A DNA stretch of 64,000 nucleotides, taken from contig CACVBU010000096.1 in the NCBI GenBank assembly GCA_902728285.1, positions 179,937 to 243,936 of the forward strand, given 5' to 3'. Position numbers and translations under genes: made by a program. Under the pieces are notes generated by a model. That model saw only the letters and a program-made list of their open reading frames with translations. It was not told the DNA's origin and made no database searches. The first letter of the stretch is position 1. Every line of letters starts with the position of its first letter. Below are positions 9,651 to 60,958 of the stretch, piece by piece. The DNA is from Clytia hemisphaerica (taxonomy: Eukaryota > Cnidaria > Hydrozoa > Leptothecata > Clytiidae).

Positions 9651-9665
9651 TTGGAAGCCGGCATC

Positions 9666-10748
9666 ATGATGCCATCAAGGCCAGAAGAAGGTGGTGGCCG
9701 ATTGCTGGTTTGCACACTAAAACAATGCACCGACGATATCGTTGATAAAGACAAAGACCGCTTGACCTGTGTCAAGTGCAAGAGGAGTGTTCACTACAGA
9801 TGCACGATGCTTCCCGCGTACCAGATACAGCAGTTCATCGACAAGACGAAAAGCACTCATTACAGGTACACCTGCCAAAATTGTGTAGAAGTTAAACCTG
9901 TACTCTCAGCCCTCATCCCTTCAAGACGACCCCAATCATCTCTTAAACTTGAACAGGAAGTCGAAAACCTACGAAGAGAGCTAGAAGCCTGTAAGGGGCT
10001 TCTCAAGCAAAACGAAGTCGATAGAGTTACTATTGCATCCCAAAAGAAAGAACTGGCGAACCTAAGGAAAAATCTCAATGAAGATCCGGGTTTCCACACC
10101 ATAGAGTACGTTGAGCAAAAGTTTGAAGAGAAACTCGAGTCACTCAAACCGACTATCAAAGAAATGATTGAACAAACAATCAAAACAGAGTGTAAAGCAC
10201 TCTCAGAAAAGACGTATGCTTCCGTTACCTCCTCCAACACCACTAATCTTGCTACCCCGAATCAAGACTCACTAAAGGAAGTTATCAAAGATGCCTGGCG
10301 CGAAGAGGGAGCAGAAGAGGCAGACAAGAGAAGACGTGCACCAAACGTCATCGTTCATGGTTTACCAGAAAAAGATGAAGAAAATGACAAAAGTTGGGCA
10401 TCAGATTTTATCAAGGATACCCATGCCCGAGCTAACATTCAGCGTGTCAGAAGATTAGGCGTAGCAGATGGAAATAAAAAGCGACCTTTGTTGTTATCAC
10501 TCAAAAATGAACAAGAGAAATGGACCGTTATCGGAAATTTAACAAGTTTAAAGGGATTAGAAAACTACAAAGGTATCAGTATTACAGAGGACCTAACACC
10601 CGCACAACGGAAAGTATATAAGGAATTATCGAACGATGCAAAGAAGCTAAACTCTGAGGAAAAATCTCAAACTGAAATTTATCGAGTCAGAGGTGATACA
10701 AAAAACGGTTTCGCTGTAAAGAAGCTGAAAATCAAAAAACAACAATAG
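9666..10748 (+). CDS. LINE ORF1 protein with PHD-like zinc finger and coiled coil
   Basis: This is an RNA-binding/chaperone-type ORF1 of a CR1/Jockey-like element. The frame opens at 9651 with TTG; I choose the ATG at 9666 (MMPSRPEEGGG). Residues near the start contain spaced Cys/His pairs (CTLKQC..CVKC..HYRC..CQNC) that look like a PHD-type finger. A charged coiled coil follows (LEQEVENLRRELEACKG), and then a conserved C-terminal segment with RRRAPNVIVHGLPE and KGISITEDLTPAQRKVY, shared with the ORF1 part of the second LINE at 28.2-28.9 kb. The ORF is intact. ORF2 begins in another frame overlapping or abutting its end. Confidence 0.85.
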   Translation: MMPSRPEEGGGRLLVCTLKQCTDDIVDKDKDRLTCVKCKRSVHYRCTMLPAYQIQQFIDKTKSTHYRYTCQNCVEVKPVLSALIPSRRPQSSLKLEQEVENLRRELEACKGLLKQNEVDRVTIASQKKELANLRKNLNEDPGFHTIEYVEQKFEEKLESLKPTIKEMIEQTIKTECKALSEKTYASVTSSNTTNLATPNQDSLKEVIKDAWREEGAEEADKRRRAPNVIVHGLPEKDEENDKSWASDFIKDTHARANIQRVRRLGVADGNKKRPLLLSLKNEQEKWTVIGNLTSLKGLENYKGISITEDLTPAQRKVYKELSNDAKKLNSEEKSQTEIYRVRGDTKNGFAVKKLKIKKQQ

Positions 10749-13693
10749 AAACAAACCACTATAAACAAGCACCAAATAGCAATAAAGCAAACCCTACCCC
10801 AAGAACTATACCTGAAATAAGAATCCTATCAACAAATGCCGATCAATTTACGAAAGCAAAGAAAGGAATATTAAATAAGATAAATCAACTCGAGAAACCG
10901 CACCTAATCGCAATTTGTGAAGTAAAACCCAAACATGGTGAAAAATGGCAAATCCACGAATACGAAATGAAAGACTACAAAGTTGTAAACTCCACTAATA
11001 CCAATAACAACAAAGGTCGAGGAATCGTTATATTGGCACACTCATCAATAGACCATCTAGTTGCTGACATCGAAAGTCCTGTTGAATTCGAAAAAACCTG
11101 TATTATCGAGATTCGTCTAGCAAAGAAAGACAAACTTGTATTTGCGTGTATATACAGAAGCCCTACGAAGCAAGCTAACTCGCACGAAAACAATTCTATG
11201 TTGAACAGCCTGTTGAAGTCATTGAGTCAAGACAAGAGATATTCACACAAATGTATAGTTGGAGATTTTAATCTACCAACAATAAATTGGGAAAACTGGA
11301 CAACCCCCCATATTGAGGACAGTAAAGAAGAAAAATTCTTGGATGCACTACGAGATTCATTTCTTTACCAATACGTCAAAGAGCCGACGAGATGTAGAGG
11401 AACAGACGATCCGTCTCTAGTAGACCTCATTCTAACCAGTGAATATAACCAAGTCAACAATCTCAAATATCTTAGTCCACTTGGAAAAGGTGACCACAGT
11501 GTACTTGTCTTTGACTTCAAGTGTTGTGCTGAGCAGAAGCCAAGTTGCCAAAAGTATTCCTACAATTCAGCTAACTTCCAGGAAATGCGACGCTTTCTTC
11601 GAGCGGCTAATTGGACGCAAGACTTTATCGCGACATCAAGCGGAAAGACAGTATGTGAGCTCTGGGAACAGTTCAAAACTGATCTAAACGATCTAAAGAG
11701 CCGATTCGTCCCGCTAAAAGAAGTTGGAAATTCCTTTGGAAGAAAAAAGGAAATATACCGATAGGGGAAGATATTCGAAATGAAATCAGGATAAAAGAAC
11801 GCCTACATAGGAAGTGGATTAATTCTTCGGATGCTGACAAGGAGTTCAATAGAGCAAAATATGTTTCGGCGCGAAACCGAGTCAACAGTATAATGAGACG
11901 CACGCGTAGAAACCATGAACGAGAAATTAGCAGATCGGCAAAGAACAACCCGAAGCCCGAAGCGATTTTGGTCGCATGTAAGAAATCAATTGAAGTCGAC
12001 AAGCCGAGTTGCATCTCTTCTGGAGTCGGAGGACAACAAAGAATCATTGAAGCATGTAGACATAGAAAAGGCAAATATCCTACAAAAGCAATTTTGTGGT
12101 GTATTTACGAATGAGCCAAACGGACAATTACCTTCATTTGATAAAAGAACAGATACGATGATCGATATCCCTGAAATTTCTCTAGAAACAATAATAAGAC
12201 AGATCAAGCAGCTTGACCCCAGCAAATCATTTGGACCAGATGAGATTCATCCGTTGATGCTGAAGGAACTAGTTGACTTCGTTGCAGAACCGCTGAAGAT
12301 AATCATGAACAAAACATTAGAAGAGAGCGTATTACCTGAGGACTGGAAGATGGCGCATGTCACGCCAATCTACAAGAACAAGGGTGCTCACAACCTAGCC
12401 ATAAACTACCGTCCAGTCAGTTTAACATCTATAGTATGCAAAATGATGGAGTCAGTGCTACGAAAAGCAATTATGGATCATCTTGTGGAAGAAAATCTTT
12501 TATCTGAAAAACAGTACGGTTTTATTGGTAAGCGATCAACAGTCACTCAACTTCTTTACTACATTGACCAATGTTGTGAAACGATGGCAGAAGGCAAAGT
12601 TGTCGATTGCATCTATTTTGATTTTGCAAAAGCGTTTGACACCGTCCCTCACAGGAGGTTAAAGAAAAAACTGGAATGTTACGGGGTAGGTGGAAGTCTA
12701 CTAAACTGGATAACATCGTTTTTGTCAGATCGCAAGCAGCTGGTCAAAGTCAACTCAGCCAAATCAACAACTAACCCTGTCGTAAGTGGGATTCCTCAAG
12801 GAAGTGTACTTGGACCTCTGCTATTTGTCATTTACATCAATGATTTGCCAGACAAAGTAGTTTCGGATGCATTTCTCTTCGCTGATGACACGAAAATAGT
12901 GAAGACTATAGATTCGGTAGAAGACTCTATCGTTGTACAAAGAGATATCGATGAAATGGAAAAGTGGTCTCAGGATTGGTTACTCACGTTCCATCCTGAT
13001 AAATGTCATGTCTTAACAATAGGTAAATTCGCCAACATCAAGCATGCACACAGATACCAGCTTGGGGGTAATGAACTTGAACATGTTTTTGAAGAAAAAG
13101 ACCTCGGCATCTTGATCGATTCCGAACTAACTTTCGAGGAGCATATATCCAAACAGGTTAACAAAGCAAATTCAATCCTTGGAGTCATCAAAAGAAGTTT
13201 TAACGACTTGAGTCCTTCGGCATTTTGTACTCTGTACACCACCTTTGTCAGACCTCACTTGGAATATGCACAATCAGTATGGCAGCCAAAATTACGTCGT
13301 AGTATAAATTTGATTGAAGGTGTTCAAAGACGGGCGACAAGACTGATCCCTCAATATCGTAATCTCCACTACGAAGAACGTTTAAAAAGACTCAAACTTC
13401 CATCTCTTGAGTTCAGAAGGCTTTTCAGTGATATGGTGCAAATATATAAGCATATTCATTTTTACGACCCACAGACAACTCGGAACAAGTTTAGATTCCA
13501 TGATCATGAATTTGTTCCAAACTTTGCTGATGATGGTTTTCGTGGGGCTCAGACGAAATCTTTCTACTATAGATCGATCCCAACATGGAATGCACTACCG
13601 CGATTTGTCATCGAGTCGACCTCAATCAAATCGTTTAAAGAAAGCCTAAACAAAGCGTGGGAAAAACACCAACTAAGATACTTGACATATTAA
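10703..13693 (+). pseudogene. LINE ORF2 (endonuclease-reverse transcriptase), broken
   Basis: The endonuclease part shows STNADQF, AICEV, CIYRSPT, VGDFNLPTINW and GDHSVLVF, the APE-type active-site blocks. The reverse transcriptase part shows NYRPVSLTSIVCK, YFDFAKAFDTVPH, SGIPQGSVLGPLLF and the FADDTK catalytic box. Defects are: a shift in the A-run near 11740, with a TAG at 11762-11764 in the endonuclease frame; and a 7-bp duplication (CCCGAAG, about 11950-11963) that shifts the frame back before the RT domain. No ATG lies upstream of 10967 in the endonuclease frame, so the normal ORF2 start is lost or non-standard. The homologous intact ORF2 at 25212-28238 confirms these breaks. Confidence 0.9.
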
Positions 13694-18060: not shown

Positions 18061-18694
18061 TTTGTAATTTGTGTAAATACAGTAATTTTGTTCAGTTATA
18101 TATTGTAGGCTAGAAAAATTAAAACAATTTTTAGGAAGTTATCAAATTTGATTGAAAATGTATTGAAAATCTTACTTCGTTACTTTCTGGTTTTCAAATT
18201 TGGAATTTCTGCACATCTGACAAATTTCCATTTCCTTTTTGAATTCTTTTTCGCGTTCCGAATGGAACATTTGCAAAGTGAGGTTGAAGAGTCAGTGTGG
18301 AATCAAAAGTAACAAAATAACTACTGGTTGAAATAACTTTTAAAATACAACCACACATCAAATGATAAATACAACCACACATCAAACAAAGTCGAATTTA
18401 TTCAGATGATCATGGTCATTTTTAATGTGACGTTTTGTAAATGCTCAAAAATTATGATTTATGCTCAAAATACAATCTTTTTTAAGTGTGTTTTTTTTAG
18501 GATAGTAGATTTTCAGAGTTTATTAATGTTACAAAGAACTTCATTTTTATGTTGCAAAAGTGAGGTTACCATGAAATTTAAACACCTTCACTAAATTTTA
18601 AAAAACTACTAGAATTAAGGATTATACCGTTGATTTTTCGGCCATGTGAAGTTAGATAACTGAGGTTCCATTTCCCAAAAAAGGTGCTGGAAAT
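18061..18694. other. Upstream region of the Mos-like kinase
   Basis: No gene is seen. A direct repeat of AAATACAACCACACATCAAA occurs at about 18344-18364 and 18365-18385. This region would hold the promoter of the kinase, but I cannot point to a specific element with confidence. Confidence 0.3.
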
Positions 18695-19555
18695 ATGAAA
18701 AGTATGAAAAATCGGTTAGATTATTTTGAGAATTTATGCACCAAACGCAAGGAAGATTTCCATTTCAACGAAATTCAACTCGGTCGTCTTTTGGGTTCCG
18801 GAGGTTTTGGTAATGTACATGAATGCACAATTAATCGCCAGAAGTATGCACTCAAACGCTTTCATATCACCACCAGAAACGCAAGGGCTGCTCAAGAAAG
18901 TTTCACATCCGAGAACATGGCTATTCGATTGCAACATAAAAACATTGTGCGCACACATTGTACGTTTATACAAAATGAATCACATTATATCTTAATGGAA
19001 TATTTGAATGCAAGGACATTACAATCCATAATTGATGACGAAAACGAGGTAATATCATTTAAGCGCAGAATTAGATTCGCAAAACAAATTTCTTCCGGTC
19101 TTACGTACTCACATGAGAAAAATATTGTACATTTAGACTTAAAACCATTGAACATTTTAGTCTCCCAGGTTATAGATCAGTGTAAAATCTCTGATTTTGG
19201 ATGTTGTAAAGACCTAACAGAGATCTCTTCTCTTACAACTCCAACAAAGACAAGCTTGACCGGCACCTATCCATACCGTGCACCTGAATTACTATGCGGC
19301 GAGCCTGCTACAGACAAAGCTGATGTATACTCTTTTGGCATATGTTTGTGGCAAATGGTAACGCGCGAAAAACCTTATGGAAACGAACACCACGAAGTTA
19401 TAATTTTTAAAGTGGTTGCATACAATTTTAGACCCCACATACCAGAGGACACAGAGAAACTCTATTCAGAGGTGATGACTCAGTGTTGGGAGGAATGTAA
19501 AGAGAATAGGATGAAAGCTAGCGAGGTTATGCAATTTTTCAGAGAACATTTTTAA
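18695..19555 (+). CDS. mos: Mos-type serine/threonine protein kinase
   Basis: This is a 286-residue single-exon kinase. In the family, Mos is a MAPK kinase kinase that activates MEK/MAPK in oocytes and controls meiotic arrest. Visible motifs: glycine loop GSGGFGNV (34-41), YALK with Lys54, αC Glu73, catalytic loop HLDLKPLN (146-153), DFG (167-169), APE (196-198) and a KADVYSFGICLWQM stretch. HLDLKP in place of HRDLKP, CKISDFGC, the GTY.YRAPELL segment and VAYNFRP near the C-terminus are Mos-like. All catalytic residues are present. The start at 18695 leaves a ~28-residue leader before the kinase core, typical for Mos; a second ATG is three codons later. The macrosatellite begins 15 bases past the stop, so the 3' UTR and polyadenylation site probably lie in repeat DNA. 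Cnidarians often have several Mos paralogues, so the exact paralogue is not set. Confidence 0.88.
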   Translation: MKSMKNRLDYFENLCTKRKEDFHFNEIQLGRLLGSGGFGNVHECTINRQKYALKRFHITTRNARAAQESFTSENMAIRLQHKNIVRTHCTFIQNESHYILMEYLNARTLQSIIDDENEVISFKRRIRFAKQISSGLTYSHEKNIVHLDLKPLNILVSQVIDQCKISDFGCCKDLTEISSLTTPTKTSLTGTYPYRAPELLCGEPATDKADVYSFGICLWQMVTREKPYGNEHHEVIIFKVVAYNFRPHIPEDTEKLYSEVMTQCWEECKENRMKASEVMQFFREHF

Positions 19556-25211: not shown

Positions 25212-28200
25212 TCAATCATACTCAAACATTTTCTCTTTCCAAGCTAGACCGAGGTTTTCTTTAAACTCTTGTATTGTAGATGATTTAACTACTTTTTCAG
25301 GTAGGCTATTCCACTGTTCAATGCCCCGATAGTAAAGGGAGTTGCTCTGTGGTCCACGGACACCATCGTTCCCGAAAATTCTTACCAGCTCAGAATTATG
25401 TGTTCTCATTGGTCTTATTCGTTGGTTAAATTTCTTAGGAACACACGATTTTTCATAGTGATTTAAATGTTTAAAGATCTCAACCATATCACTTACCGCA
25501 CGCCTATATTTTAGACTTGGGATTCCAATTCTTTGTAGTCTGCTTTCATAACATAGTCGTCCACATGTTTCGACTGTTTTTGTAGCGCGCCGCTGAACAC
25601 CTTCTATAAGTTTTTTGTGTTTTTTCAGTTTCGGTGACCAAATGACTTGGGCATATTCTAGGTGGGGCCTGACAAATGTTATGTAAAGTTTACGGAATAA
25701 TTCAGGAGTGAGATACGTGAAGGCTCGTCTAATTAGACCAGCCATTGAGTTTGCCTTTTTTACTTGGTTTGATATATGTTGGTCGAATGAGAGATTTTGG
25801 TCAAAGATAACTCCGAGATCCTTTTCGAATTGTACATGTTTCAGTAAATTTCCTCCGAGTGTGTATTGATGTACATGTTTAATTATATTCGGCTTACCTA
25901 ACGTTAGTACATGACATTTGTCGGGATGAAATTTTAAAAGCCACGTATCTGACCATTGCTGTAGTCGATCGATGTCCTCCTGGATTATAAGTGCATCTTC
26001 AATTGATTCTACTTTATTGACAAGTTTAGTGTCGTCAGCAAATAGAAAGAGTTGTGATTTAATTGAATCTGGTAAATCGTTGATGTATAGAACGAAAAGG
26101 GTAGGCCCTAAGACACTACCTTGGGGTACTCCACTAAGAACTAATTGTTTTTCGGATTCAACTCCATTTACTTTAACTATCTGAAATCGATCCTTCAGGA
26201 AGTATCTGATCCATTCAAGCAGCTTATTTCTTATTCCGTAGGCTTCTAATTTGATTAAGAGCCTTTGGTGGGGAACTGAGTCGAATGCCTTTGCAAAGTC
26301 AAAGTACACTGCGTCAACAGCTTTACCGTTAGCAATGTCTTCGGTACACACATCTAGATAGTTTAGCAGTTGTGTTACTGTTGATCGGCGATTGATAAAA
26401 CCATGTTGCTTGTTAGAAAGTAGTTTCTCTTGCTCTAGATGCGACATAATATGTGTTTTAAGAATCTTTTCCATCATTCGACACACAATGGATGTCAGGC
26501 TAATCGGACGGTAGTTTTCCGCTATATTTTTGTTTCCTTTTTTGTAAACAGGTGATACATTAGCATGCTTCCAGTCGTTTGGGAGACAACTTTCGTTGAG
26601 AGATTTTGTCATTATTAGGAAAAGCGGTTCTGCAATATATTCAGCGAGCTCCTTTAGCATCCTTGGGTGAAGTTCATCTGGCCCCATGGATTTGTTTGGA
26701 TTTAACGCCTTGAGTTCCTTTTTTATAGTTTCAGTTAGTATTTTTATCTCTACTTCTTTATCCGTCCTGGAATGGAATTCAGGGAGTTGTTCAAGTGGCT
26801 CACGTGTAAAGACACTACAGAATTGGCTCTGGAGTATGTTGGCTTTACTTTTGTCATCATATTTGATCGAATTTTCATTATTAGGGTTTTCGAGGAGAGG
26901 ATGTATTCCCGTTCTTGCTTTCAGATTGCTGCGTACATATTTCCAGAATCTTTTTGGATTTGTTTTTGATTGTTCGCTGATCTTTTTTTCGAACTCTCTC
27001 TTGGAGCGAGTCAGGGCTCTATTAGCGGCGTTGCGCCATCTTACGTACTCCCTTCTACGTCTTTCAGTGTCGTCGTTTTGAAGTGAGATGATCCATTTTC
27101 TATGCGCCTTACGTTTCTCTTTAATTATCTGACAAATTTTTGGATCTAAGGGATGCTTCCCTTTCCTCCTTTGATTTGACAGGTTGTTCTTATTGTGGGT
27201 AAGTGGCACATAGAGGTTTCTGAGCTCGATCATCTGTTTTAGGAATAGGTCCCAACTCTCATTCACATCTAATTCAATCGACTTTTGGATGAATTCGATA
27301 GACCAATTGATGTGGCTTAGATGAGATCTCATAAACTGGTAGTTGGCTTTGCTGTATTGATATCTATCAAGCTCATTTTTAATTGTGAAATAGCCATAGA
27401 ATTTAAAGGAGAGGACACTGTGATCACTGAGATGGAGTGGGGCAAGATATTTTATCTCGGAAACTTGATTTTCTTCCCCTGTAAGGATGAGATCGAGTAT
27501 TGATGGTTTGTCGGTGCCTCGTCGCCGTGTCGGTTCAAGGACATGTTGGTATAAAAAACAGTCTCTTAAAGCATGAAGGAATTTCTCCTCGTCGCTATCT
27601 TCTTCACAAGGTGAGGACCAATGGACCCAATCGATTTTCTTATAGTTAAAGTCACCTATAAGACATATATGAGTGTATTTCGGATTTAGGCAGAGATCTT
27701 TTATGAGCTTATTCATGTTCTTATTATTTTCATCGAAGATGTTTGTTTCGGTTTTTGTCGGGCTTCTATAAAGACATCCGAGTAACATAGTGTCTTTGTT
27801 CTCCATTGCAATTTCTAACAGGCAAGTCTCTTCAAATTCAACTTTCGTTTGTATTTGTAGAATGAGGTGATCAATAGACTTGTGGACTAGAATGATGATT
27901 CCTCTCTTTTTTTGTATTCCTATGTTAGTTTTATATGGTATAGAATAATTCTCAATTGAGTAGTCTTGATCTTTTCTCTCAGAGATCCGTTTGGTGTTGA
28001 CTTCGGTGATCGCAATTATATGAGGTTGTTCGGTAGCGACGTGCTTTAAAAGTTCATTTTTCTTCTTAGATGTCATTTGGTCTGCATTTGTGTAGATGAT
28101 AGTAAGTTCACTAATTGTTGTGGTTGTGTTTTTTGAATTGTTTTTGTTAAGTGGGTTTTCATTCAAGCTGTCGTTATCGTTATCGATCGGTTTTATTGAT

Positions 28201-28238
28201 TGATTGGGTTGTTGTTTCGTTTTTGTGTTTTGTTGCAC
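25212..28238 (-). CDS. LINE ORF2: endonuclease-reverse transcriptase, intact (1,008 aa)
   Basis: This protein nicks target DNA and primes reverse transcription. The APE endonuclease part has YTNADQM, AITEV, GCLYRSPT, IGDFNYKKIDW and LSDHSVLSF (within residues ~45-280). The reverse transcriptase part has VSPVYKKGNKNIAENYRPIS, YFDFAKAFDSVPH, SGVPQGSVLGPTLF and FADDTKLV. A C-terminal region with FVRPHLEYAQVIW and EGVQRRATK follows, typical of CR1/Jockey elements. ATG at 28238 overlaps the end of ORF1 by 46 nt in another frame, as expected for translation coupled to ORF1. There are no internal stops or frameshifts. With ORF1 truncated the copy should not be autonomous, but its ORF2 could still be made if transcribed from array sequence. 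Confidence 0.95.
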   Translation of the reverse strand: MQQNTKTKQQPNQSIKPIDNDNDSLNENPLNKNNSKNTTTTISELTIIYTNADQMTSKKKNELLKHVATEQPHIIAITEVNTKRISERKDQDYSIENYSIPYKTNIGIQKKRGIIILVHKSIDHLILQIQTKVEFEETCLLEIAMENKDTMLLGCLYRSPTKTETNIFDENNKNMNKLIKDLCLNPKYTHICLIGDFNYKKIDWVHWSSPCEEDSDEEKFLHALRDCFLYQHVLEPTRRRGTDKPSILDLILTGEENQVSEIKYLAPLHLSDHSVLSFKFYGYFTIKNELDRYQYSKANYQFMRSHLSHINWSIEFIQKSIELDVNESWDLFLKQMIELRNLYVPLTHNKNNLSNQRRKGKHPLDPKICQIIKEKRKAHRKWIISLQNDDTERRRREYVRWRNAANRALTRSKREFEKKISEQSKTNPKRFWKYVRSNLKARTGIHPLLENPNNENSIKYDDKSKANILQSQFCSVFTREPLEQLPEFHSRTDKEVEIKILTETIKKELKALNPNKSMGPDELHPRMLKELAEYIAEPLFLIMTKSLNESCLPNDWKHANVSPVYKKGNKNIAENYRPISLTSIVCRMMEKILKTHIMSHLEQEKLLSNKQHGFINRRSTVTQLLNYLDVCTEDIANGKAVDAVYFDFAKAFDSVPHQRLLIKLEAYGIRNKLLEWIRYFLKDRFQIVKVNGVESEKQLVLSGVPQGSVLGPTLFVLYINDLPDSIKSQLFLFADDTKLVNKVESIEDALIIQEDIDRLQQWSDTWLLKFHPDKCHVLTLGKPNIIKHVHQYTLGGNLLKHVQFEKDLGVIFDQNLSFDQHISNQVKKANSMAGLIRRAFTYLTPELFRKLYITFVRPHLEYAQVIWSPKLKKHKKLIEGVQRRATKTVETCGRLCYESRLQRIGIPSLKYRRAVSDMVEIFKHLNHYEKSCVPKKFNQRIRPMRTHNSELVRIFGNDGVRGPQSNSLYYRGIEQWNSLPEKVVKSSTIQEFKENLGLAWKEKMFEYD

Positions 28239-28906
28239 ACCTTCTTTATTTCGAAGCCGTTTTTTGACGATCCTCGAACCCGATAAATAAATTCATCGGT
28301 TTCTAGGTCATCATTTAGGTCTTTCGCCTGTTGTGATAGCTCTTTATACTTTTCACGTTGGGACCTACATAGGTCTTCTGTGATACTTATGCCTTTATAA
28401 GTATCGTTACCTTTAAGTGATGGGAGATTTCCCATGATCTTAAGTTTATCATCTTCACTATCGAGGCAAATTAACAGTGGACGATTTGGTTTCTTACCTA
28501 TTCTAAATATTTTTTTGATCTTAGAAGAAACATGCAGATCCTTAATTAATTGATCAGCCCATTCGCAGTCCCTAGTATGATTATTTTTGTCACTATTATC
28601 GCATACCTGTTCTTCTTCTTTTATCCCGTGAACGATGATGTTCGTGGCTCTTCTCCTCTTCTCCATCTCAAGAGCGATCTCTTCGTCTCTGGCTTGTTTA
28701 ATCGCAAGTTTGATTCCGCTCGTGTCACTCGTCGGTTGTTGAGGGAGACCAGATTTTGTGGCTTCTGAATACGATTTCATCGCTTGTTGGCATTCGTTCT
28801 TTATTGTTGACAGGATACTGTCCTTGAATTCGTCAAGCTTTCGTTCGAATTTCTTTTCAGCAAACTCGAGTGTATGCAGGCCGGGGTCAGCTTTCAAATC
28901 ATTTTT
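28193..28906 (-). pseudogene. LINE ORF1, 5'-truncated
   Basis: Only the C-terminal portion of ORF1 remains, starting at KNDLKADPGLHTLEF and ending at the stop at 28193. It aligns to the intact ORF1 at 9666-10748 from about residue 132 on, including RRRATNIIVHGIKE and KGISITEDLCRSQREKY. The zinc finger is missing. The frame happens to stay open into the adjacent macrosatellite unit (antisense to its open frame) up to 29056, making a 287-codon chimeric frame. Confidence 0.9.
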
Positions 28907-31900
28907 CAGGGAGGCCCTTAGAATGGAAAGGCACCATAAGCGGCAACAATACAGGGAAGAACGCAGACATTTAGAGGAACGAGCTGAACTGTTGGAACGT
29001 TTAATCCAACATACGGTGAAGCCTTTGAGCTCAATTCCTGCACAAAACAACAACACAACACAATGTCAGCCAACAAACCAATTAAAATTAAACCGTCCAA
29101 CAACTACATCATCAACAACACTTGCTCAAAACCAAATAATGTCAAATCCAAATCCTCGTCCTGTTTACCATATAAATTTCAGTAACAATAAATTTGTCAT
29201 GAATGAGTTCCACCACCCTTGAGATTATTTCAATATTACAATAGTTTTTTCTTTTTATTTCTTTATATGTGCCTTTTTTTCTTTTTTGATTTTGAATCCG
29301 AAATCTATTGCAAAACCGGTGTTCTTCTCTTCCAAACTGGTAGCAACCGGTTCTCATTGACTGAGATTTCAGATTTTTTTAAACCGGTTTGGATCGGTTT
29401 GAACGGGTTGCATGAACGATCGGCACCAGTGCAAAGATCGGTTTTTCGATAACCGGTTTAAATCGGGTGTTATGGAAATCGCTTGGCAGGACACAAATAT
29501 TTAAAGTAATTTATTTTATTGTGTATGCTTTCAACAGAAAAGTTAGAGAGTCACAAGAGTGCTTGAAAATAAAAATAATTTGAACTAGTTAAAACAATTG
29601 TTGCACGGCCATCTTTGATTGGATTAATCGGATTCAAATTTCCTTGTTTAACCAAATTTTAGGAAATTAACTGAGAAGAAATGCTTTCTTTTCCTTTTAT
29701 CCTTTAGAAGACAAATATAAGTATATTCTGTGAAATTTTCAAGTCTCTAGCCCTTTCCTATCCGGAATTATCTTGATTCTGATTTAGAGGGATCTCAACC
29801 AGGATGAGGACAGGATAGAGGGATCTCTCGAAAACAAAAGTGCCCAATAACTGGTGAACAAAATCAAGATCTTTAAAACGAAAAGGCAGAGGTAGAGGCA
29901 ACAATTTCATCCAATTGGCTGCAAATAACCATCCAACTGGTGGAAATTTCCCAAATTTCTCCCTACAACAATACAGGGAGGCCCTTAGAATGGAAAGGCA
30001 CCATAAGCGGCAACAATACAGGGAAGAACGCAGACATTTAGAGGAACGAGCTGAACTGTTGGAACGTTTAATCCAACATACGGTGAAGCCTTTGAGCTCA
30101 ATTCCTGCACAAAACAACAACACAACACAATGTCAGCCAACAAACCAATTAAAATTAAACCGTCCAACAACTACATCATCAACAACACTTGCTCAAAACC
30201 AAATAATGTCAAATCCAAATCCTCGTCCTGTTTACCATATAAATTTCAGTAACAATAAATTTGTCATGAATGAGTTCCACCACCCTTGAGATTATTTCAA
30301 TATTACAATAGTTTTTTCTTTTTATTTCTTTATATGTGCCTTTTTTCTTTTTTGATTTTGAATCCGAAATCTATTGCAAAACCAGTGTTCTTCTCTTCCA
30401 AACTGGTAGCAACCGGTTCTCATTGACTGAGATTTCAGATTTTTTTAAACCGGTTTGGATCGGTTTGAACGGGTTGCATGAACGATCGGCACCAGTGCAA
30501 AGATCGGTTTTTCGATAACCGGTTTAAATCGGGTGTTATGGAAATCGCTTGGCAGGACACAAATATTTAAAGTAATTTATTTTATTGTGTATGCTTTCAA
30601 CAGAAAAGTTAGAGAGTCACAAGAGTGCTTGAAAATAAAAATAATTTGAACCAGTTAAAACAATTGTTGCACGGCCATGTTTTATTGGATTAATCGGATT
30701 CAAATTTCCTTGTTTAACCAAATTTTAGGAAATTAACTGAGAAGAAATGCTTTCTTTTCCTTTTATCCTTTAGAAGACAAATATAAGTATATTCTGTGAA
30801 ATTTTCAAGTCTCTAGCCCTTTCCTATCCGGGATTATCTTGATTCTGATTTAGAGGGATCTCAACCAGGATGAGGACAGGATAGAGGGATCTCTCGAAAA
30901 CAAAAGTGCCCAATAACTGGTGAACAAAATCAAGATCTTTAAAACGAAAAGGCAGAGGTAGAGGCAACAATTTCATCCAATTGGCTGCAAATAACCATCC
31001 AACTGGTGGAAATTTCCCAAATTTCTCCCTACAACAATACAGGGAGGCCCTTAGAATGGAAAGGCACCATAAGCGGCAACAATACAGGGAAGAACGCAGA
31101 CATTTAGAGGAACGAGCTGAACTGTTGGAACGTTTAATCCAACATACGGTGAAGCCTTTGAGCTCAAATCCTGCACAAAACAACAACACAACACAATGTC
31201 AGCCAACAAACCAATTAAAATTAAACCGTCCAACAACTACATCATCAACAACACTTGCTCAAAACCAAATAATGTCAAATTCAAATCCTCGTCCTGTTTA
31301 CCATATAAATTTCAGTAACAATAAATTTGTCATGAATGAGTTCCACCACCCTTGAGATTATTTCAATATTACAATAGTTTTTTCTTTTTATTTCTTTATA
31401 TGTGCCTTTTTTTCTTTTTAATTTTGAATCCGAAATCTATTGCAAAACCGGTGTTCTTCTCTTCCAAACTGGTAGCAACCGGTTCTCATTGACTGAGATT
31501 TCAGATTTTTTTAAACCGGTTTGGATCGGTTTGAACGGGTTGCATGAACGATCGGCACCAGTGCAAAGATCGGTTTTTCGATAACCGGTTTAAATCGGGT
31601 GTTATGGAAATCGCTTGGCAGGACACAAATATTTAAAGTAATTTATTTTATTGTGTATGCTTTCAACAGAAAAGTTAGAGAGTCACAAGAGTGCTTGAAA
31701 ATAAAAATAATTTGAACCAGTTAAAACAATTGTTGCACGGCCATGTTTTATTGGATTAATCGGATTCAAATTTCCTTGTTTAACCAAATTTTAGGAAATT
31801 AACTGAGAAGAAATGCTTTCTTTTCCTTTTATCCTTTAGAAGACAAATATAAGTATATTCTGTGAAATTTTCAAGTCTCTAGCCCTTTCCTATCCGGGAT

Positions 31901-52948: not shown

Positions 52949-54609
52949 AATTTCAAAATTTTAGACATCTAGTTCCAATAGTGCACCTTAAAGGTTTTAT
53001 TTTCACATGAGTGTTCCCGCTTCATACCAGGAGTCTTTCCGACCAATCTTGCTCCACATTTGTGTCAATTCAATATAAAAACGCTTGTAAATCAAAATTG
53101 ATAAGTGAGCAGAGAATATAACTCTTATTAAAAAACAAAATCTTTAAGTGTACACTTTACTGATCCAGTTGTGTTTATTTAATTTTGCAAGTTTTTTGGT
53201 TAAATTATGCAAAATTAAGCAGAATTAAGTAATGTTAATCTTTTAAAAGATTACAAAATTAAATAAACATCTATACAATAGCTAATTTTGATTTTTTTAC
53301 GATTCATGTCCGTTAAACTATCAGCGAGTCCATTAGTTTGATAGCTTTTATGAACGTTTTGAAAGTTTCGCAACTCACAAAAATTTACACTTACATTTTA
53401 CAATTAGTGTGATGACTGGTCTGTAGCCAACCTTTTTGAATGCCTGATGAACAAAACATCCATCTTCCCTTTAAATAAAGACAAAGGAATTTCAATTACT
53501 TTAGCATTTGAAATGTTTTGCAACTATGAGACTTTTAGGAGATTTTACATTCTTATGAGATGCTACTCGATATACTCGATTTTTTCTTCTTGATGGTTCT
53601 GCAAATGCTCCTTTCTAATATTTGATTGTTTTTTTTTATTTCAATGAAAAAGTTGATTTTTGTTCTGATTTTTAATCGACAAAATATTTATTTACTTTGG
53701 TTAATGATTAGTGAACCAATTATTGCGAAGCGAATGTACATGAGCGAAGCAGTTTTGCTATCGTGTGTGCGTACCTTTAACTTTCCATTCCTTTCAACTC
53801 TCTATAAGGCAGGAGATGGGAAACACGTTTCGAATCTCCGAGTTGCGCGATACCAAAATATAAAGGAGATAAAATACTGATAATATTCCGGGAAACGATA
53901 ACTCAAATTATCTCCGTCATAGAAAATTTGTCGTATACAAATTTAGTGAATCCGTGTATGACTACATGACTCGAAATTCTCGTATTTCCTCAGGTCGCTC
54001 CGCTTTCGCCGCTAAATGCTCATTTTGCCCCAAGAGAACTCCTCTTATTGGTTAGTTTTATGATTCGCGGCAGAAATATCTTTACACTGATTGGTCCTGC
54101 AGAATCGTTGTTATGGTTTCTATTTATCATCAAAATGTTTAATTTCATTCTCTCCGAATTTGGCTGCTGAATCGCAATTCTGACAGTCTGAGAAACTGCT
54201 TGGCTGTTTTTTTGGATTTTCATTGAGTCGTTTACATCATTATTATAAAAGTTTAAACCGTTTTTAAAACTGGTTTTCTTGGCTTTATCTTTAATTGCCA
54301 TCGTTTTTCGTTGACCATTGGTTTGGTTTGGACTTTCAATCAAATCGACATCAAACAAACACAACGCCTGCCCTGCTGCTATTGTTTATTTTTTGGTCAA
54401 CTGGTGGTTGATGGTCTTATTTTCAAATCAGGGAAGTAAATTTTTTAATTGTGTGTGTGCTACACAATACTATTAGTTTTAATATTTGTTCTTGATCTTG
54501 GAGTACTATCCTGCCTCCTTGCTTTTCTTTCTACTAAAGAGACCCATTGTTCTAACTTTTGCCACACGCACCAAATTAATTAGATATTTTTGGGTATCAT
54601 TTTGATAAT
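52949..54609. other. Intergenic region before the USP-Helitron locus
   Basis: AT-rich with no recognisable gene. A minus-strand open frame 54364-54020 (114 codons, Asn/Lys-rich, starting MCLFDVDLIESPNQTNGQRK) is longer than expected by chance in this base composition but matches no family I know. The frame 53626-53880 is hydrophobic and probably chance. The promoter of the USP frame would lie at the right end. Confidence 0.35.
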
Positions 54610-56268
54610 ATGTCGGCTTCTTCAGACAGAATTAGTCCTATAGGACTTACCAATTTCGGCCAAAATGTGTGTTTTTTTAATTCCGTTATTCAAGCATTGT
54701 ATTCAGTCAATGCCTTTCGGAAGTTTGTTTGTCAATTTAAAAATAGTGCTGAAAATGATCCCGTCAAAATTGTGATGAAACACTTATTTACTACTATGAC
54801 ATCCTCTGATGCCCCAGTAGAAACATACCCATTATTGCCATATTTTGAGCTACCAGGTTACGAACATGCAAGGTTTGAACAGTTTGATGCACACGAATGT
54901 CTCCTTCATATTTTGGATAAAATTTCTCCAATAGAAAATGAGCAATCAGTGTTTAAGACTTCAGTTTTACAGTCAATATTATGCAAAAGTTGTCAGAATG
55001 TTTCTGATCAAACAGTGTTTGAACAGACATGTCACATCAAATTTCCCAATAGGGTTGGTAATTCAATAAAGCAAGAGCTGGCCAAGCTAGTAGATGACCC
55101 TTTTGGAGAGCCACTTGATGAATTATATCAGTGCTCTAATTGCTCCGTTCGAACCAATGCTATTATATCTAGAACATTATTTCATATATCTGATTTCCTT
55201 ATTATTACAATGGGTATGTTTCGTTACGATCGTACAACACAGAATTCAAGAAAAGTGGTACCTGATTTAGTAATTGAAGAAAATTTTGAGAATGTTCTTT
55301 TGGGTAATTTGAGTTTACAAGCTGTCATTTTCCATCACGGTGAAACCGCAAATAGTGGTCATTATACATCAGCTGTCAAATATAAAGATACGTGGTATTC
55401 AATTAATGATGATAAAGTTTTTTGTATCAAAAATGCAAACTTCAACTGTAAAGTTAATGATGAGACTGTTCCATATTTATTAATTTATAAAAAATCAAAA
55501 CCACAAAAAATTTCACCATCTTTACCAATTCATAATAGCCCTGTACGCAATTTTACATTTGATAATAACATTTCTAAAGTTGCTTTTTGCTCAAACTCAA
55601 AAACCACCAAAAGTATGGGTGCTACCTCTTTCACAAAAAAAATGGACAGTGTTGATATGCATTTGCAAGAGGAATGTGACATTTACAAAGCTACTTTTTT
55701 ATCACCTCAAAAGAATGAAAGCACCAGCGCAATTAGGAAACGAAGAAAAATTATGCGAAGTGAAATAAAAGTAAAAAAGTTGTGTAAATTTCCAATGAAA
55801 CTGAAAAAGAACTTGCTTGATAGACCAGTCATAAAAATAACGTTCCCAAATAAACCTCAGGGTAAAACACTATTTAAAAATATTGATTTTCAACGCATCG
55901 TTATCCCTTCTGCAACTTTTAAAGATAAAAAATCCTCAAAAGAAACAACATATAAGAACAAATCGAAAACTGGCAAACTTTTAAACAAGAAAAAGATAAA
56001 TCCAGACAGGTTATTAAAAGGTCTTACTCAAAATAATTCAAAATTATCACACACTTCTATGAACATCAATACTAATCGACCACCTTCTGACAACAATAAC
56101 ATTCCATTGAACAATCAGAATGATCATGAGATGAATGAAGAACCACGTGTGAACGAAACAAATATTCAATTGAGTGACCATCATCATGGGCACCTTAACA
56201 TCTATGAAAATAGATTTGTAAAAGAAGCTGTATCGAACTTCATCAAAGGGGAAGATAAGCATTCATAA
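54610..56268 (+). CDS. Ubiquitin-specific protease (C19) domain, N-terminal part of a Helitron replicase
   Basis: USPs cleave ubiquitin from proteins. The Cys box is at residues 12-30 (GLTNFGQNVCFFNSVIQAL, Cys21). A QFDAHECLLHILD box is at 91-103. Zinc-binding pairs are CKSC (125-128) and CSNC (175-178), and the His box HHGETANSGHYTSAV (His251) is followed by WYSINDDKV (third catalytic residue Asn266/Asp267). All expected catalytic residues are present in a compact ~295-residue domain. A basic, disordered linker follows (300-552). ATG at 54610 is the first in-frame start and sits just before the domain. The stop (56266-56268) lies inside the 642-bp insertion, not in the original gene: the ancestral frame continues into the Helitron Rep protein downstream. 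Confidence 0.9.
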   Translation: MSASSDRISPIGLTNFGQNVCFFNSVIQALYSVNAFRKFVCQFKNSAENDPVKIVMKHLFTTMTSSDAPVETYPLLPYFELPGYEHARFEQFDAHECLLHILDKISPIENEQSVFKTSVLQSILCKSCQNVSDQTVFEQTCHIKFPNRVGNSIKQELAKLVDDPFGEPLDELYQCSNCSVRTNAIISRTLFHISDFLIITMGMFRYDRTTQNSRKVVPDLVIEENFENVLLGNLSLQAVIFHHGETANSGHYTSAVKYKDTWYSINDDKVFCIKNANFNCKVNDETVPYLLIYKKSKPQKISPSLPIHNSPVRNFTFDNNISKVAFCSNSKTTKSMGATSFTKKMDSVDMHLQEECDIYKATFLSPQKNESTSAIRKRRKIMRSEIKVKKLCKFPMKLKKNLLDRPVIKITFPNKPQGKTLFKNIDFQRIVIPSATFKDKKSSKETTYKNKSKTGKLLNKKKINPDRLLKGLTQNNSKLSHTSMNINTNRPPSDNNNIPLNNQNDHEMNEEPRVNETNIQLSDHHHGHLNIYENRFVKEAVSNFIKGEDKHS

Positions 56269-56906
56269 GCCTACATTGACATGAAATATATAATCTCAGG
56301 GTCAACGGACTCATTCTCGTCTCCATTTCTTGTCTCCCGCCCACTAATCGCAGTTTCGGGCCAAGGCGTGAAATTATGGTCAGTGGCGGTAGACAAGAGA
56401 CCGCCCGCGACTCTCCCTAGTCCTCTCGTTCCGGTGTTTATTCGACCCAGACCTCGCGTGGTTTCTTCTTCTTCGACCCTGCTCTTCGGTCGTGAGTTTT
56501 CTTCCCCACCTTCCCACCCTTTCACAATTTTCTCGGGTCCCTCCTATGTCGCGGTTGGTCACATGATTGTGACGCCTAGATTCTCTTCCTAGGGCCTATG
56601 TTAGCCTTTGTACTTACGGGGCCTCTGTATTACACATGCCGACCGAGTACCGTATCTGATAGCCTTTGTACTTACGGGGCCTCTGTATCCTGCATGCCGA
56701 CCGAGTACCCACATGTTTAGTCGCCTCTTAGCCTTGGTACTTACGGGGCCTCTGTCATATGCCGACCGCGTACCTTACTTGCCTATAGGAGTGACCCCAA
56801 TATATCCGCCACACTTGTATATAGCAATAAGCCTACATTGACATGAAATATATAATCTCAGGGTCAACGGACTCATTCTCGTCTCCATTTCTTGTCTCCC
56901 GCCCAC
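56265..56906. mobile_element. 642-bp insertion with identical 80-bp terminal direct repeats (TRIM-like)
   Basis: 56265-56344 and 56827-56906 are identical 80-bp direct repeats (ATAAGCCTACATTG...CCCGCCCAC). The element is flanked by a 9-bp direct repeat TAAGCATTC (56256-56264 and 56907-56915). The interior is GC-richer than the host DNA and holds three ~65-bp tandem copies of a GTACTTACGGGGCCTCTGT word followed by GCCGACCG(A/C)GTACC (about 56610, 56670, 56738). There is no coding capacity. The structure is like a terminal-repeat retrotransposon in miniature, but the ends are not TG/CA and the 9-bp duplication is long for an LTR element, so its class is open. Confidence 0.85.
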
Positions 56907-57945
56907 TAAGCATTCTATAGATAGATGTATCACATGCCAAGAAGTCAGGCCAGTATTCTTTTCCCATGTCCCTAAGAAGAAGGCGGATAAGTGGCAAGTA
57001 GAAGATCAAAGATGCATTAGGTGTAAAGATGAATTTAATCAGAAACAAAATCGAAAAAAAAATCATGCGCTACTTTTTTCAGGGATTCATTCACCTCCCA
57101 CTGATTGCTTCTGTGACAATGAGGGAAATCTGTTGCATAATAATCAACACTTTGCCAACACACCCTCTTTTCTCCAAGGCCTTACTTTTGTCGAAACATT
57201 GTTAATTCGCAAAATATCCATTGCAATCTATGTTCATTGTTTAAAGTACGGAATGTTGGCCTCAAAGGGCCATGCAGTTGCCATACCTTCAAATTTAAAA
57301 ATATTCACCAAATTGCCTCAATTACCATCTGAAATTGGCATCATCTTGATAAGAAGTGGTAGCAATAATTCAAAAGCTTACATGGCCTCCCGACACAGGG
57401 TACAAAAAGCTCTTAACGGTTTGGTTTTTGGTATCCCTGCTTTTGGACTGGATAATCCACATCCTGGATATTCTCAATATAAAGGAAAAAATCACATTTC
57501 TGGGAAAATTTTAAAAGGAAAATATTTTTTGCATGAGCCCAATCCATATTATCATGATGTAATTATTGAGCAGAATCGCCTCTTAAACATTCCTGAAGAT
57601 GCTGGAATTATACCAGGGCTTCCAATAGTTTCTGCAAATAAGTTCAATAATGAAAATAAAAATGAAGATAAAGGCCCAGCACCTGGTCAGTTTGAAAAGC
57701 TTGCTGTAGATGAAGAATTAACAACAGCATCAGGGTTTGCAACTCAATTAACAAATTCTGATGCTGATGAAAATGTCAAGAATGCATTGCGTGCATTTCT
57801 GGGTGACAATGCTAATGTTGAAGAAATTCTTGAAGCAGGTCAAGTAGCAGACATAGGAAGGCTGCACCTAAACAAAAGAGAGAAACCTATTCCAGAATTA
57901 TCAACCGATGGTTTTTTCACAATGTGTTATCCTCATATTTTGTAA
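56907..57945 (+). CDS. Helitron replicase: Cys-rich and DUF6570-like segment
   Basis: Directly after the insertion the USP frame resumes with a segment carrying CITC, CIRC and CFCD, a probable zinc-binding module. Then comes a region with FLQGLTFVETLLIRKISIAI, KGHAVAIPSN and LPQLPSEIGIILIRSG, which resembles the DUF6570 region found at the front of many invertebrate Helitron proteins. The end reads TDGFFTMCYPHI, the start of the Helitron_like_N domain, before a 1-base loss in a T run (57935-57938) that produces the stop at 57945. The in-frame TTG at 57133 is not a real start; the true start is the USP ATG upstream. Confidence 0.8.
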
Positions 57946-58785
57946 ATGGGACATGTGATTATACTATTAAAGCTGCAAGAACTTTGAAATATGAAGACTG
58001 GGTACAGCACATATGCTATTGCAATGATAACAGAGTGCCTGCTCACAGATTTCTCAAATTTCACCTAATGAATATCAGTATGCGTAAAAAAGCTTTGGAT
58101 CAAGGTTCCTTCTGTGTCAACCAACAGATCAATGAGAAGCACATCACCAGGGATGAGTTACTTGAACAGTTAGAAAATCAAGATGAGGCAATACCGCGTA
58201 AATTTTTATCATTCAGTGCTAACTTAATTGATACAGCTCCGTATTGGCGTGAACGAAAGCATGAATTGGATTCCTTTTGTTTTTTCATTTTGAAAGAACA
58301 CCAAGTTTATCCTACCTATTTTGATACTTCCAGCTGTGCAGAGCATCACTGGATTCCACTGCATAACATTTTGATAAAGTACCTGTCTCAAATTACTGGA
58401 GATCTTGAAGCTGATCTCCAAGTAAAATTCAAAAGTGACTCAAAGTTTCGACATCAAGTCTTACTTCAAAACCAGCATATTGTTACATCATATTTTCATG
58501 CAAGACATCACAATTACATAAATACAGTATTAAAAGAGCTTTTTCAGTATGAAGAATTTTGGAGTCGATATGAATTCGCCAAATCAAGAGGGCAGATTCA
58601 TTCACACTCCTTATTTTTTTCTAAACAACACTATGATAAAGTCAAAGCTATATTATCTCAAGATAAAAATGACCCAACTGTAAATATTGCCAAAGATCTT
58701 GAAACATGGCTTCAAACAAATGAGATGAATGACACTGGGGGTTTTTTTCTCCTGGGTTTGTATCCTTACACCCTGCAGGAGGTGA
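57936..58785 (+). CDS. Helitron Rep (HUH nickase) domain, N-terminal half
   Basis: The frame continues FVNGTCDYTIKAARTLKYED, with RVPAHRFLKFHLMNISMRKK and YPTYFDTSSCAEHHWIPLH, the Helitron_like_N pattern. The HUH motif appears as RGQIHSHSLFF (about 58588-58617), with His-Ser-His in place of the usual hydrophobic middle residue, a variant I associate with this Helitron branch. This domain nicks the donor strand and joins DNA during rolling-circle transposition. A second 1-base loss in a run of seven T (58742-58748) shifts the frame. The stop at 58862 lies in the wrong frame. Confidence 0.85.
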
Positions 58786-60823
58786 AGTGCAACACAATGA
58801 TGATCAAACACCACAATGGGTTCCTAACAAACAAAATTGGCCTTTGCCAGAAGGAAGTTTAACTGATGTAGATGCCAATGTGTTGAAAAAATGTGTCTTA
58901 TGTCAAGGAGATGATGAAGAATTAAAAGCATTCCATACTGACTTAGTCAATAAGGTTATGCTTCACACGTGTAGCTCGTACTGTCTTAGACGTAAAACTG
59001 TAACCACTAAGGAAAAAGATCAAGATGGTAAACCAATTGAGAGAGTCATTCGATACTGCAGACATCATTTTGGCGAATATGATGAAAAATCTAAAAGATC
59101 AACTGGTAAAGAGATCAATCCTTTTGAGCCAAGAATTACAGAGGGTAAAATATCCAGATTTGAAGGTAGAAACGATCACCCCAGGATGGTTCAACATATA
59201 CTTCTAAGACCTTTAACATGGCTAGCCCAATGTGATACCCAGGCTATAGTCACTGATGATTTATTGGCATTGATTAAGTATATAACTGGGTATTGTTGTA
59301 AAGGTAACAAATCTACACAAGACCTTATGGATATATACAAGGAAATACTGAATAAATCTGATCCAACAATTTCTCTGAAGTCTGTCGCTCAAAAACTGCT
59401 TTTGAAAACAGTTGGTTTTGTTGATACTCCATCTTCAGCTGCTGATTACATCAATACTAAAGGTAAGCTATACAGCTGCAGCAGGAGATTTAAAAGAATT
59501 GGTTTAAGCGGTTTCAGGCTTTTTGATCCTAATGGTAAAGATGGCAAAGTTACCAAAGATACCATTATTGACAAATTTCTTTCAGATAAAAGAAGGGAAG
59601 AAAATCCCTATATTACTTTGTACGACTGGGCAAAAAAGTGTGATTGTGCAAAGAAGTCACCCTGTAACAAAGATCATGTTCCTGTATTTACTGGATGTCA
59701 GCGCTTTTGGATATGGCCAGCAGGTGAAGATTTTTCTAAAGAACTATTAATGAAATTCTCTCCTGGTACTTGGAGAAAAGTTGATGATTTGAAAAATGGA
59801 TTTGATACATACACAGAATCATTTGCTCAATTTCTGGACTCTGACTATTGCCCTGAATCTGTGAGAATGATGCTGCAGTTTGCGAAGGCTGAATATGACA
59901 AGAAAGTTGCTAGACGCCAAAAGAGACAAAACAATCAGCCGAATCAACCAATAGAAGAAATAAATTTCTCTCAATCAACACTTGAAGGAAGTCAAGATAG
60001 CCAATCTTCACAAGGCTCTGTCGTTGATACAATGGGAAACCAACTTCTTAGAGATATTGCGAGAGAAAATAGACTATCAATTGAAGAAGCTTCTGTCGAT
60101 GAGGAAGTGCTATACAATGGTGGAATTGATTATGACTGGCACGCAAATGGCTTGATGTGGTTGGGTGTACAATCCTTTCCTGACACACTTATAGAAGAAA
60201 CAAAGAATTGGCAAGCAAATGAAGCATTTGAGAGGGAAGGTAGACTTTGTACATTGCCAGATGTTGACCCAAAATTAGTAAATCCAATCCAAATGCTAAT
60301 TGTCAACTACAATATTCAACTTCTTTTGGATTATGCGAGAGGAAATTTTGCTGTAGGATATGAACATTGCAAACGACTAATTGTTCAAGGCTGTGCGGGT
60401 ACAGGTAAGTCACAAGTAGTAAAAATTATCACCCGTCTTGTGCGTCGCATTTTCAAATGTAATAGATCCGTTTTAAACGTTGCTCCTACTAGTGCAGCAG
60501 GTATTTTTTTACCTGATGGCGGAACTATTCACTCATGTGTTAATATTCCTAGAAAAACTAAAGGAATAACTTTTGACAGTTGTCCCATGAATTCTGATCA
60601 AATCAAACATTTAAAAAGCCTGGCACTCGACAATGATGGCAAAAAACTCTCTCTCATGTGTCTAAATGCTGATGAAAGAGGAATGGTTGGACAATATGTT
60701 TTGGGTTGGTTTCATCAACGGTTTTCCCAACTTTCAATAAACCTATTAGACAGGGAAAGTGATCAAAGTATACCGTTTGGTTGCATTCCAACTATTAATT
60801 TTTTGGTGACATTTTCCAATTGA
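58750..60823 (+). CDS. Helitron Rep C-terminal half and Pif1-type helicase
   Basis: After the T-run shift the frame reads SPGFVSLHPAGGEVQHNDD, then HTCSSYCLRRK...CRHHFGE, the Cys/His cluster of Helitron Rep. The catalytic-tyrosine segment is LIKYITGYCCKGN (about 59270-59310). A linker rich in Ser/Gln follows (59930-60030). The helicase begins near 60280. Walker A is VQGCAGTGKSQ (60388-60417), with APTSAAG (motif Ia) and NADERGMVG (motif II, DE conserved) after it. A third 1-base loss in a T run (60800-60805) ends this frame at 60823. The next frame continues GDIFQLRAIGERNLYDIVLD to 60958. The first in-frame ATG, at 58787, is internal. Confidence 0.88.
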
Positions 60824-60958
60824 GAGCCATTGGGGAACGTAATCTGTATGATATTGTGTTGGATTCGACAGACCCTATTGATTCTGCTGGTGGTTTTGCC
60901 TTCAAAGATTTCCAGGATGTATTCATTTTAGAAGAAAAATCATCAAAAAAATCATCAT
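60824..60958 (+). pseudogene. Truncated continuation of the Helitron helicase
   Basis: In the frame that corrects the T-run loss, FGDIFQLRAIGERN and FKDFQDVFILEE continue the Pif1-type helicase through motif III (the GD.FQL block). The sequence then becomes AAAATCATCA repeats and stops at TAG (60956-60958). Motifs IV to VI are absent, so the helicase is incomplete here. Confidence 0.8.

Follow-up and report, generated by a model that had tools for sequence, protein, structure and literature searches.

Deubiquitinase-class domains in rolling-circle transposons

Viral tegument-like deubiquitinase (VTD) and OTU domains have been reported in Helitrons, and VTDs expressed from zebrafish Helitrons reportedly act on ubiquitin (PMC9741609); in the excerpted text of that paper, ubiquitin-specific protease (USP) occurs only as the name of a class. 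Helentrons insert at TT and are described as having a C-terminal endonuclease and subterminal inverted repeats, with OTU also mentioned, whereas Helitron2 is described without that endonuclease (PMC4067079, in excerpt). Here, we describe a USP-carrying Helitron-like element from Clytia hemisphaerica. A decayed copy of it lies in a 64,000-nucleotide stretch of contig CACVBU010000096.1 (positions 179,937 to 243,936, hereafter the window), and copies elsewhere in the same genome confirm that the USP and a Rep-helicase form one protein of a mobile element, a fusion that is real and recurrent.

Like the VTD Helitrons and Helentrons (PMC9741609, in excerpt), this element has its deubiquitinase in the same open frame as the Rep-helicase, but the deubiquitinase belongs to another class. 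OTU Helentrons are likewise rolling-circle elements that bear an extra domain of the cysteine deubiquitinase type (PMC4067079 and PMC9741609, in excerpt); OTU is of yet another class and is encoded in additional open reading frames (PMC4067079). A first-pass annotation of the window, made from its letters alone, had described the USP as different in fold from OTU; since cysteine deubiquitinases are all papain-like according to PMC9741609, the USP is a different class instead. Our literature search turned up none that recognisably describes a USP Helitron. Helinoto, the icefish Helitron2 of Capriglione et al. 2014, reportedly contains three deubiquitinase-like domains, as stated in the title of that paper; the novelty of the present element falls if one of them is a USP. 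The USP would represent a third deubiquitinase class in rolling-circle transposons, found in the same genome as VTD elements.

USP and Rep-helicase in a single frame

A search of the same 417-Mb genome with the USP piece yielded at least 100 matches; 79 of 406 candidates were scored, and the counts are therefore lower bounds. At least ten matches lie in a stop-free frame of at least 1,500 amino acids, and four of these elements were fetched (L039, L040, L041 and L042). The window, L039 and L040 belong to lineage A, and lineage B includes L041 and L042. All four are single frames of 2,247–2,469 amino acids from stop to stop, and in each of them UCH, DUF6570 and PIF1 score above the Pfam cut-off within that one frame. 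The USP of L039 shares 97% identity with that of the window, and this locus is free of the insert described below. HxH and YxxxY motifs are present in all four, together with a Walker A pattern in L039 and L040, and these motifs are also readable in the window. Helitron_like_N (PF14214) exceeds the cut-off in L041 (44.7 bits), L042 (46.0 bits) and the database proteins P0020–P0022 and P0024, and is carried by 7 of 18 homologues of the lineage A (window) Rep piece. The first-pass annotation had placed this domain in the window protein as well; Pfam detects it neither in the window pieces nor in intact L039 and L040. For the C-terminal AP endonuclease of Helentrons, Exo_endo_phos gives weak matches below the cut-off in L041 (E 0.0055) and L042 (E 0.0024) and none in L039 and L040 at E 0.01.

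Further USP and Rep-helicase proteins, which the annotation had proposed to look for in the same genome, are thus present in many copies and in at least two Rep lineages, with all four fetched elements in a single frame. It had also held that the fusion would be accidental if Rep copies never carried the USP or if the USP were an independent host gene; the intact single frames and the shared element start show that neither holds.

Element boundaries

Homology to the window starts at position 53,720, approximately 890 bp upstream of the USP start, give or take one base, in L039, L014, L013/L017, L012, L011, L015, L016, L031 and L033; in L030 the start is at 53,722. In total, ten other loci share the 5′ end within two bases. 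Judged by eye, the flanks before 53,720 show no relationship apart from a resemblance between those of L014 and L017, indicating at least nine insertions besides that of the window. In lineage A, the element starts with T-rich sequence and TTGCGAAGCG. Four more subfamilies with sharp 5′ ends were found: long matches are 97.0–99.4% identical in L022/23/26, L025/27 and L028/29/34/35, and 84–99.7% identical in L018/19/20/21/32, where L019 is without the common 5′ end. For lineage B, a T-rich 5′ end, TTGGACCTACCCCGG, is common to four copies and a 3′ end, GGTAGGTCCATAAAAGTATCGCTTGTT, to L041 and L042, with unrelated flanks in both cases. A 10-bp subterminal inverted repeat, TGGACCTACC/GGTAGGTCCA, is present in L041 and L042, with TGGACCTACC at the 5′ end of all four copies and GGTAGGTCCA...TT at the 3′ end of these two. 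L041 and L042 measure approximately 9.1 and 9.6 kb, with the USP between the two ends; lineage B therefore shares T-rich boundaries and subterminal inverted repeats with Helentrons. Long-open copies are more than 99% identical to each other, which suggests recent activity.

Two insertions (L025:530–592 and L026:3582–3646) adjoin one sequence bearing CGCTTCGCAA, which matches the lineage A 5′ end in reverse complement. This sequence is possibly the 3′ end of another element.

Conservation of the USP domain

The UCH domain (PF00443) of the window matches with an E-value of 1.7e-27 and 97.1 bits against a cut-off of 23.9; the corresponding scores are 83–98.5 bits for L039–L042 and 77–98 bits for P0020, P0021, P0022 and P0024. 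The USP was found in 32 loci, nine of which were dropped owing to short or broken frames (L013, L014, L015, L017, L021, L026, L030, L031 and L033). The remaining 23 loci, the window and four database proteins form a 28-row alignment, in which two loci are doubled (L024/L040 and L038/L041). All 28 rows retain the catalytic Cys and 27 the His, L016 departing before the His box; the first zinc Cys falls in a gap in L032, and P0022 and P0024 have no regular first CxxC. In a nine-row alignment of family members, C21, H251, D267 and the four zinc Cys are invariant (9/9), which bears out the complete USP domain, with Cys21, His251 and zinc pairs, claimed in the annotation. The Cys box of the window (54,652–54,672) and of all aligned rows but P0021 reads NxGxNxC, compared with NxGNTC in cellular USPs.

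The best PDB matches of the USP profile are themselves USPs (USP46/USP12 and USP14), and an AlphaFold model of the domain, with a mean predicted local distance difference test score (pLDDT) of 55, is best matched by USP structures at 16–22% identity among the matches shown. By homology, we infer that the domain is a ubiquitin protease. It belongs to the same catalytic domain family as cellular USP12/USP46, USP14 and USP7, as judged by sequence profile and weak-model matches, but differs from them in its fusion to a replicase and its Cys box, longer by one residue.

In seven of 14 USP pairs, those with synonymous divergence (dS) of 0.13–0.38, the ratio of nonsynonymous to synonymous divergence (dN/dS) is 0.21–0.27, although the pairs share members; these values indicate that the USP is under purifying selection. 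Three very close pairs, with few changes, give 0.42–0.81, and four pairs with dS of 0.92–2.7 give 0.13–0.26. Among full-length pairs, mostly at saturated dS, dN/dS is 0.11–0.14 for the USP and 0.20–0.30 for the linker; for the Rep-helicase it is 0.145 (L041/L042) and 0.079 (L039/L040).

Architecture of the window copy

The window copy is dead: it carries an insert, frame changes and an early stop, and its 3′ part is lost. Coordinates of its parts are listed in Table 1. The linker after the USP is lysine-rich, and DUF6570 (E 1e-12) follows in the USP frame beyond the insert. The Rep-helicase itself is broken by frame changes near 57.83–57.95 and 58.73–58.86 kb and by a stop at 60,821–60,823; the start of Pif1 (E 1.1e-8) is recognized after Rep, past the two frame changes. 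The frame of L039 extends approximately 1 kb beyond the point where homology to the window ends. Thus, of the earlier proposal that the USP is in frame with a Rep/Pif1 protein and that the insert is the sole break, the part from the USP to DUF6570 holds, and the Rep-helicase adds two further frame changes.

Table 1. Features of the USP-carrying element in the window (positions counted from the first nucleotide of the window).
Feature	Position	Strand	Basis or remark
USP-carrying Helitron-like element, decayed copy	53720..60937	+	5′ end at 53,720 (TTATTGCGAAGCG...); homology to intact L039 ends at 60,937
USP (UCH) protein part and linker	54610..56264	+	Profile match; alignment of family members
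Open frame with USP	54,580-56,268	+	Met at 54,610
UCH domain	~54,640-55,488	+	Pfam match, residues 11-293
USP Cys21	54,670-54,672	+	Aligned catalytic residue
USP His251	55,360-55,362	+	Aligned catalytic residue
USP N266-D267	55,405-55,410	+	D267 invariant in the nine-row alignment
USP zinc Cys pairs C125/C128 and C175/C178	54,982-54,993 and 55,132-55,143	+	
Later insert, 645 bp	56265..56909	+	83-bp terminal direct repeats; GCATTC flanks
Frame with DUF6570	56842..57945	+	Domain ~57,133-57,417; first bases of the frame inside the insert
Rep (HUH) piece, second frame	57834..58862	+	His-Ser-His at 58,599-58,607; same motif in L039/L040
Rep end and Pif1 helicase start, third frame	58733..60823	+	YITGY at 59,279-59,293; Walker A GCAGTGKS at 60,389-60,412

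The terminal direct repeats of the insert are identical, and the insert also has three 53-bp repeat units. The flanking GCATTC copies are located at 56,259–56,264 and 56,910–56,915, and the insert plus this duplication amounts to 651 bp, a multiple of 3. The USP stop, TAA at 56,266–56,268, falls within the insert, as the first-pass annotation had stated for an insertion of 642 bp; the size is 645 bp. Copies without the insertion, which it had suggested seeking, were found at six loci: L039, L013/L017 (one locus), L012, L011, L015 and L030. L014 has the same insert at the corresponding site, with a left flank different from that of the window; it therefore seems that a copy already interrupted has either moved or undergone sequence exchange. 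Rfam gave nothing above the cut-off in the window and no match in the insert at E-values up to 1.

Related elements with and without a deubiquitinase

Four further Helitron loci were considered, one of which (L051, 44% N) was left out of the Pfam scan. The other three, L050, L052 and L053, encode VTD, DUF6570, Helitron_like_N and PIF1, and the VTD, like the USP, lies N-terminal to DUF6570; Herpes_teg_N (VTD) is above the cut-off in all three, in L052 barely and partly. Rep identity to L050 and L053 is 23–25% for lineage A and 28–30% for lineage B. Neither Herpes_teg_N nor OTU matches the four USP elements L039–L042 at E 0.01.

An NPGP motif precedes the VTD in L050, L052 and L053 (GDIELNPGP, GDVETNPGP and GDVELNPGP), and D[VI]ExNPGP occurs before the USP near the N-terminus of P0020 from Clytia (residues 65–72) and P0021 (residues 99–106). 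The leader start MISIEAYR is common to P0021, L050 and L052. We take the D[VI]ExNPGP motif of these Helitron proteins to be 2A-like; our literature search turned up none that recognisably describes 2A in Helitrons. No NPGP motif is present in L039–L042, and none lies between the USP and Rep in L001–L042.

The best Helitron_like_N family of the genome (L002–L006) presents a different picture. None of its five loci matches UCH, VTD, OTU or DUF6570 at E 0.01 in the scanned stretches, which begin approximately 1.2 kb before Rep (the frame start or near it) and extend no further than the start of Pif1. The notion that all Helitrons of this genome carry a deubiquitinase was rejected on this basis.

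A distinct arrangement is found in P0024 (2,838 amino acids, 51 member sequences), a Helitron protein with a C-terminal USP (residues 2309–2627) followed by a Ulp1-type/C48 protease (PF02902, E 4.6e-6) in the C-terminal 212 residues. Its USP sits on a long branch and may be a separate gain. IMG/VR scans with P0024 and P0021 found no relative.

Exchange of USP modules

L041 and L042 are 97.7% identical in the Rep-helicase (dS 0.067) but only 60.6% in the USP (dS 2.65), and at the DNA level their identity rises from 46–72% to 97–100% across a single 200-base interval at the start of DUF6570. Since the USP differs between elements with nearly identical Rep, exchange of the USP between L041 and L042 is clear. 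A milder switch was found in L012 and L011 relative to L039, with 60–95% identity in the 5′ part and 97–99% from approximately 150 bases before the insert site; the homology of L011 stops later. Tandem repeats occur in the linker between the deubiquitinase and DUF6570 in L041:2006–2557 (69 bp, in frame) and L053:5692–6104 (60 bp). Their unit lengths are multiples of 3, and they are possible recombination sites for module exchange.

Between lineages A and B, the USP is 48–53% identical, and Rep is 26–28% identical over 500–661 residues (L041/L042); P0020 has no Rep match to lineage A. The ratio of Rep to USP distance is 0.04–0.40 within lineages, 5.0–5.5 between lineage A and Clytia lineage B, and 2.2–2.4 between lineage A and P0021/P0022. 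In the Rep tree, a single clade of Clytia USP carriers was rejected by the approximately unbiased test (p-AU 0.0007, with a long-branch warning). Lineage A forms one clade in the USP tree (99/98). The USP topology was dropped as proof of inter-lineage transfer, monophyly of the lineage B USPs not being rejected (p-AU 0.158, with long branches in play). The case for exchange is carried by the distance ratios and by the L041/L042 and L039/L012 mosaics. Exchange of the USP module between elements thus has good but not complete support, and for the USP of lineages A and B exchange looks likelier than two separate gains.

Possible role of the fused USP

Collectively, we consider that the window contains a dead rolling-circle transposon whose intact protein would deubiquitinate through its USP, mainly in cis or at the replication site, and thereby spare the replicase; we assign this reading a probability of about 0.7. 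In intact copies, the single protein of this Helitron/Helentron-type element starts with a putative deubiquitinase of the USP class and continues through a linker and DUF6570 to an HUH-Y2 Rep nuclease and a Pif1 helicase. Fused to Rep, the USP would be delivered wherever Rep acts, and because of this tether it would act mainly in cis or at the replication site. Most economically, it would strip ubiquitin off the replicase, or off factors at that site, and so spare them ubiquitin-dependent degradation or silencing. This mechanism is in line with a published suggestion that VTDs of Helitrons may keep proteins required for transposition from being degraded by the proteasome, and that a deubiquitinase activity, which more than one class can supply, is of benefit to Helitrons (PMC9741609, in excerpt). 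The USP occupies the N-terminal position held by the VTD deubiquitinase in some related elements.

Several observations weigh against this reading. The Cys box is one residue longer in 27 of the 28 aligned rows (P0021 being the exception), which could affect catalysis, and the fold matches lend weak support because the mean pLDDT of the model is 55. The USP and linker diverge more than Rep at the protein level, so constraint on them is weaker. P0019, a database model near-identical to L042, begins within the USP and has no UCH match, and three extra stretches searched for the lineage A 3′ end did not reach it. The USP tree alone does not reject a vertical lineage B clade, and the deubiquitinase module is dispensable for some Helitrons, as L002–L006 show none in the stretches scanned.

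The most serious competitor, which we nevertheless regard as unlikely, is that the USP acts in trans on host silencing or repair proteins, as a counter-defence, rather than shielding Rep in cis. Module swapping and the fast change of the USP and linker resemble an arms race, and fusion to Rep is compatible with trans action; still, the fusion is direct, and no 2A-like NPGP lies between the USP and Rep in L001–L042. It is improbable that the USP is instead a processing protease that cuts a polyprotein between itself and Rep: among solved structures, its nearest relatives (USP46, USP12 and USP14) are ubiquitin proteases, even if the protein is very long, the linker of L041 contains tandem repeats, the 2A-like sequences of relatives suggest that some elements split their product, and viral deubiquitinases often also process viral polyproteins (PMC9741609, in excerpt).

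Helitrons are known to capture host genes (PMC4289320 and PMC4344730, in excerpt), and the USP could be a passively carried fragment of such a gene. This explanation is very improbable and was rejected, given the structure of the copies, the ends of the element and the signature of selection. The USP and Rep are encoded without a break in a single frame across diverged lineages, the catalytic residues are conserved and dN/dS is 0.21–0.27; moreover, the USP has been kept despite approximately 50% divergence between lineages and is found with Rep in P0021 and P0022. That a host USP gene merely happens to lie next to a Helitron insertion, to which the window alone would point by its USP stop before the Rep part, is practically dismissed by copy structure, element ends and intact copies: the stop sits in an insert that six other loci are without, the start of the element, upstream of the USP, recurs at ten other loci, and intact copies are one frame.

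Other features of the window

An uninterrupted protein kinase open frame is located at 18,656–19,555 (Pkinase E 1.7e-50); it is presumably Mos-like, as judged by eye, and a PDB search did not resolve the subfamily. Two frame sets resembling retrotransposons without long terminal repeats lie at 9,621–13,693 and 25,212–29,065, with RVT_1 in both. An endonuclease match is present in the second set; the first was scanned without its 10,697–11,764 frame.

Implications

The first-pass annotation had suggested that ubiquitin removal is a recurrent need of these transposons. PMC9741609 argues the same from VTD and OTU Helitrons, at least in excerpt, and three sibling elements here carry a VTD; the five loci of another family (L002–L006) show no deubiquitinase in the stretches scanned, so that not every Helitron needs one. 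A shared selective pressure is likely, given that a third class occurs in the same genome as VTD elements and that elements whose replicases are almost identical have different modules. More tentatively, and at somewhat less than even odds in our estimation, one Helentron-type branch may have a swappable N-terminal deubiquitinase slot. In it, arrangements of 2A-like leader plus VTD and of USP would interchange, and USP cassettes would pass between deep Rep lineages and between near-identical elements via recombination around the linker, driven by conflict with host ubiquitin-based restriction of rolling-circle transposition. The lack of a deubiquitinase match in L002–L006 narrows this proposal to one transposon branch and does not lower it.

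If the shared pressure is true, some ubiquitin-dependent host step limits these transposons. The question is testable because the near-identity of the long-open copies suggests recent activity, and the Helitron family of the same genome that apparently lacks a deubiquitinase provides a natural comparison. Finally, new USP genes could arise from transposon-borne USPs, which also set a trap when host USP families are annotated.

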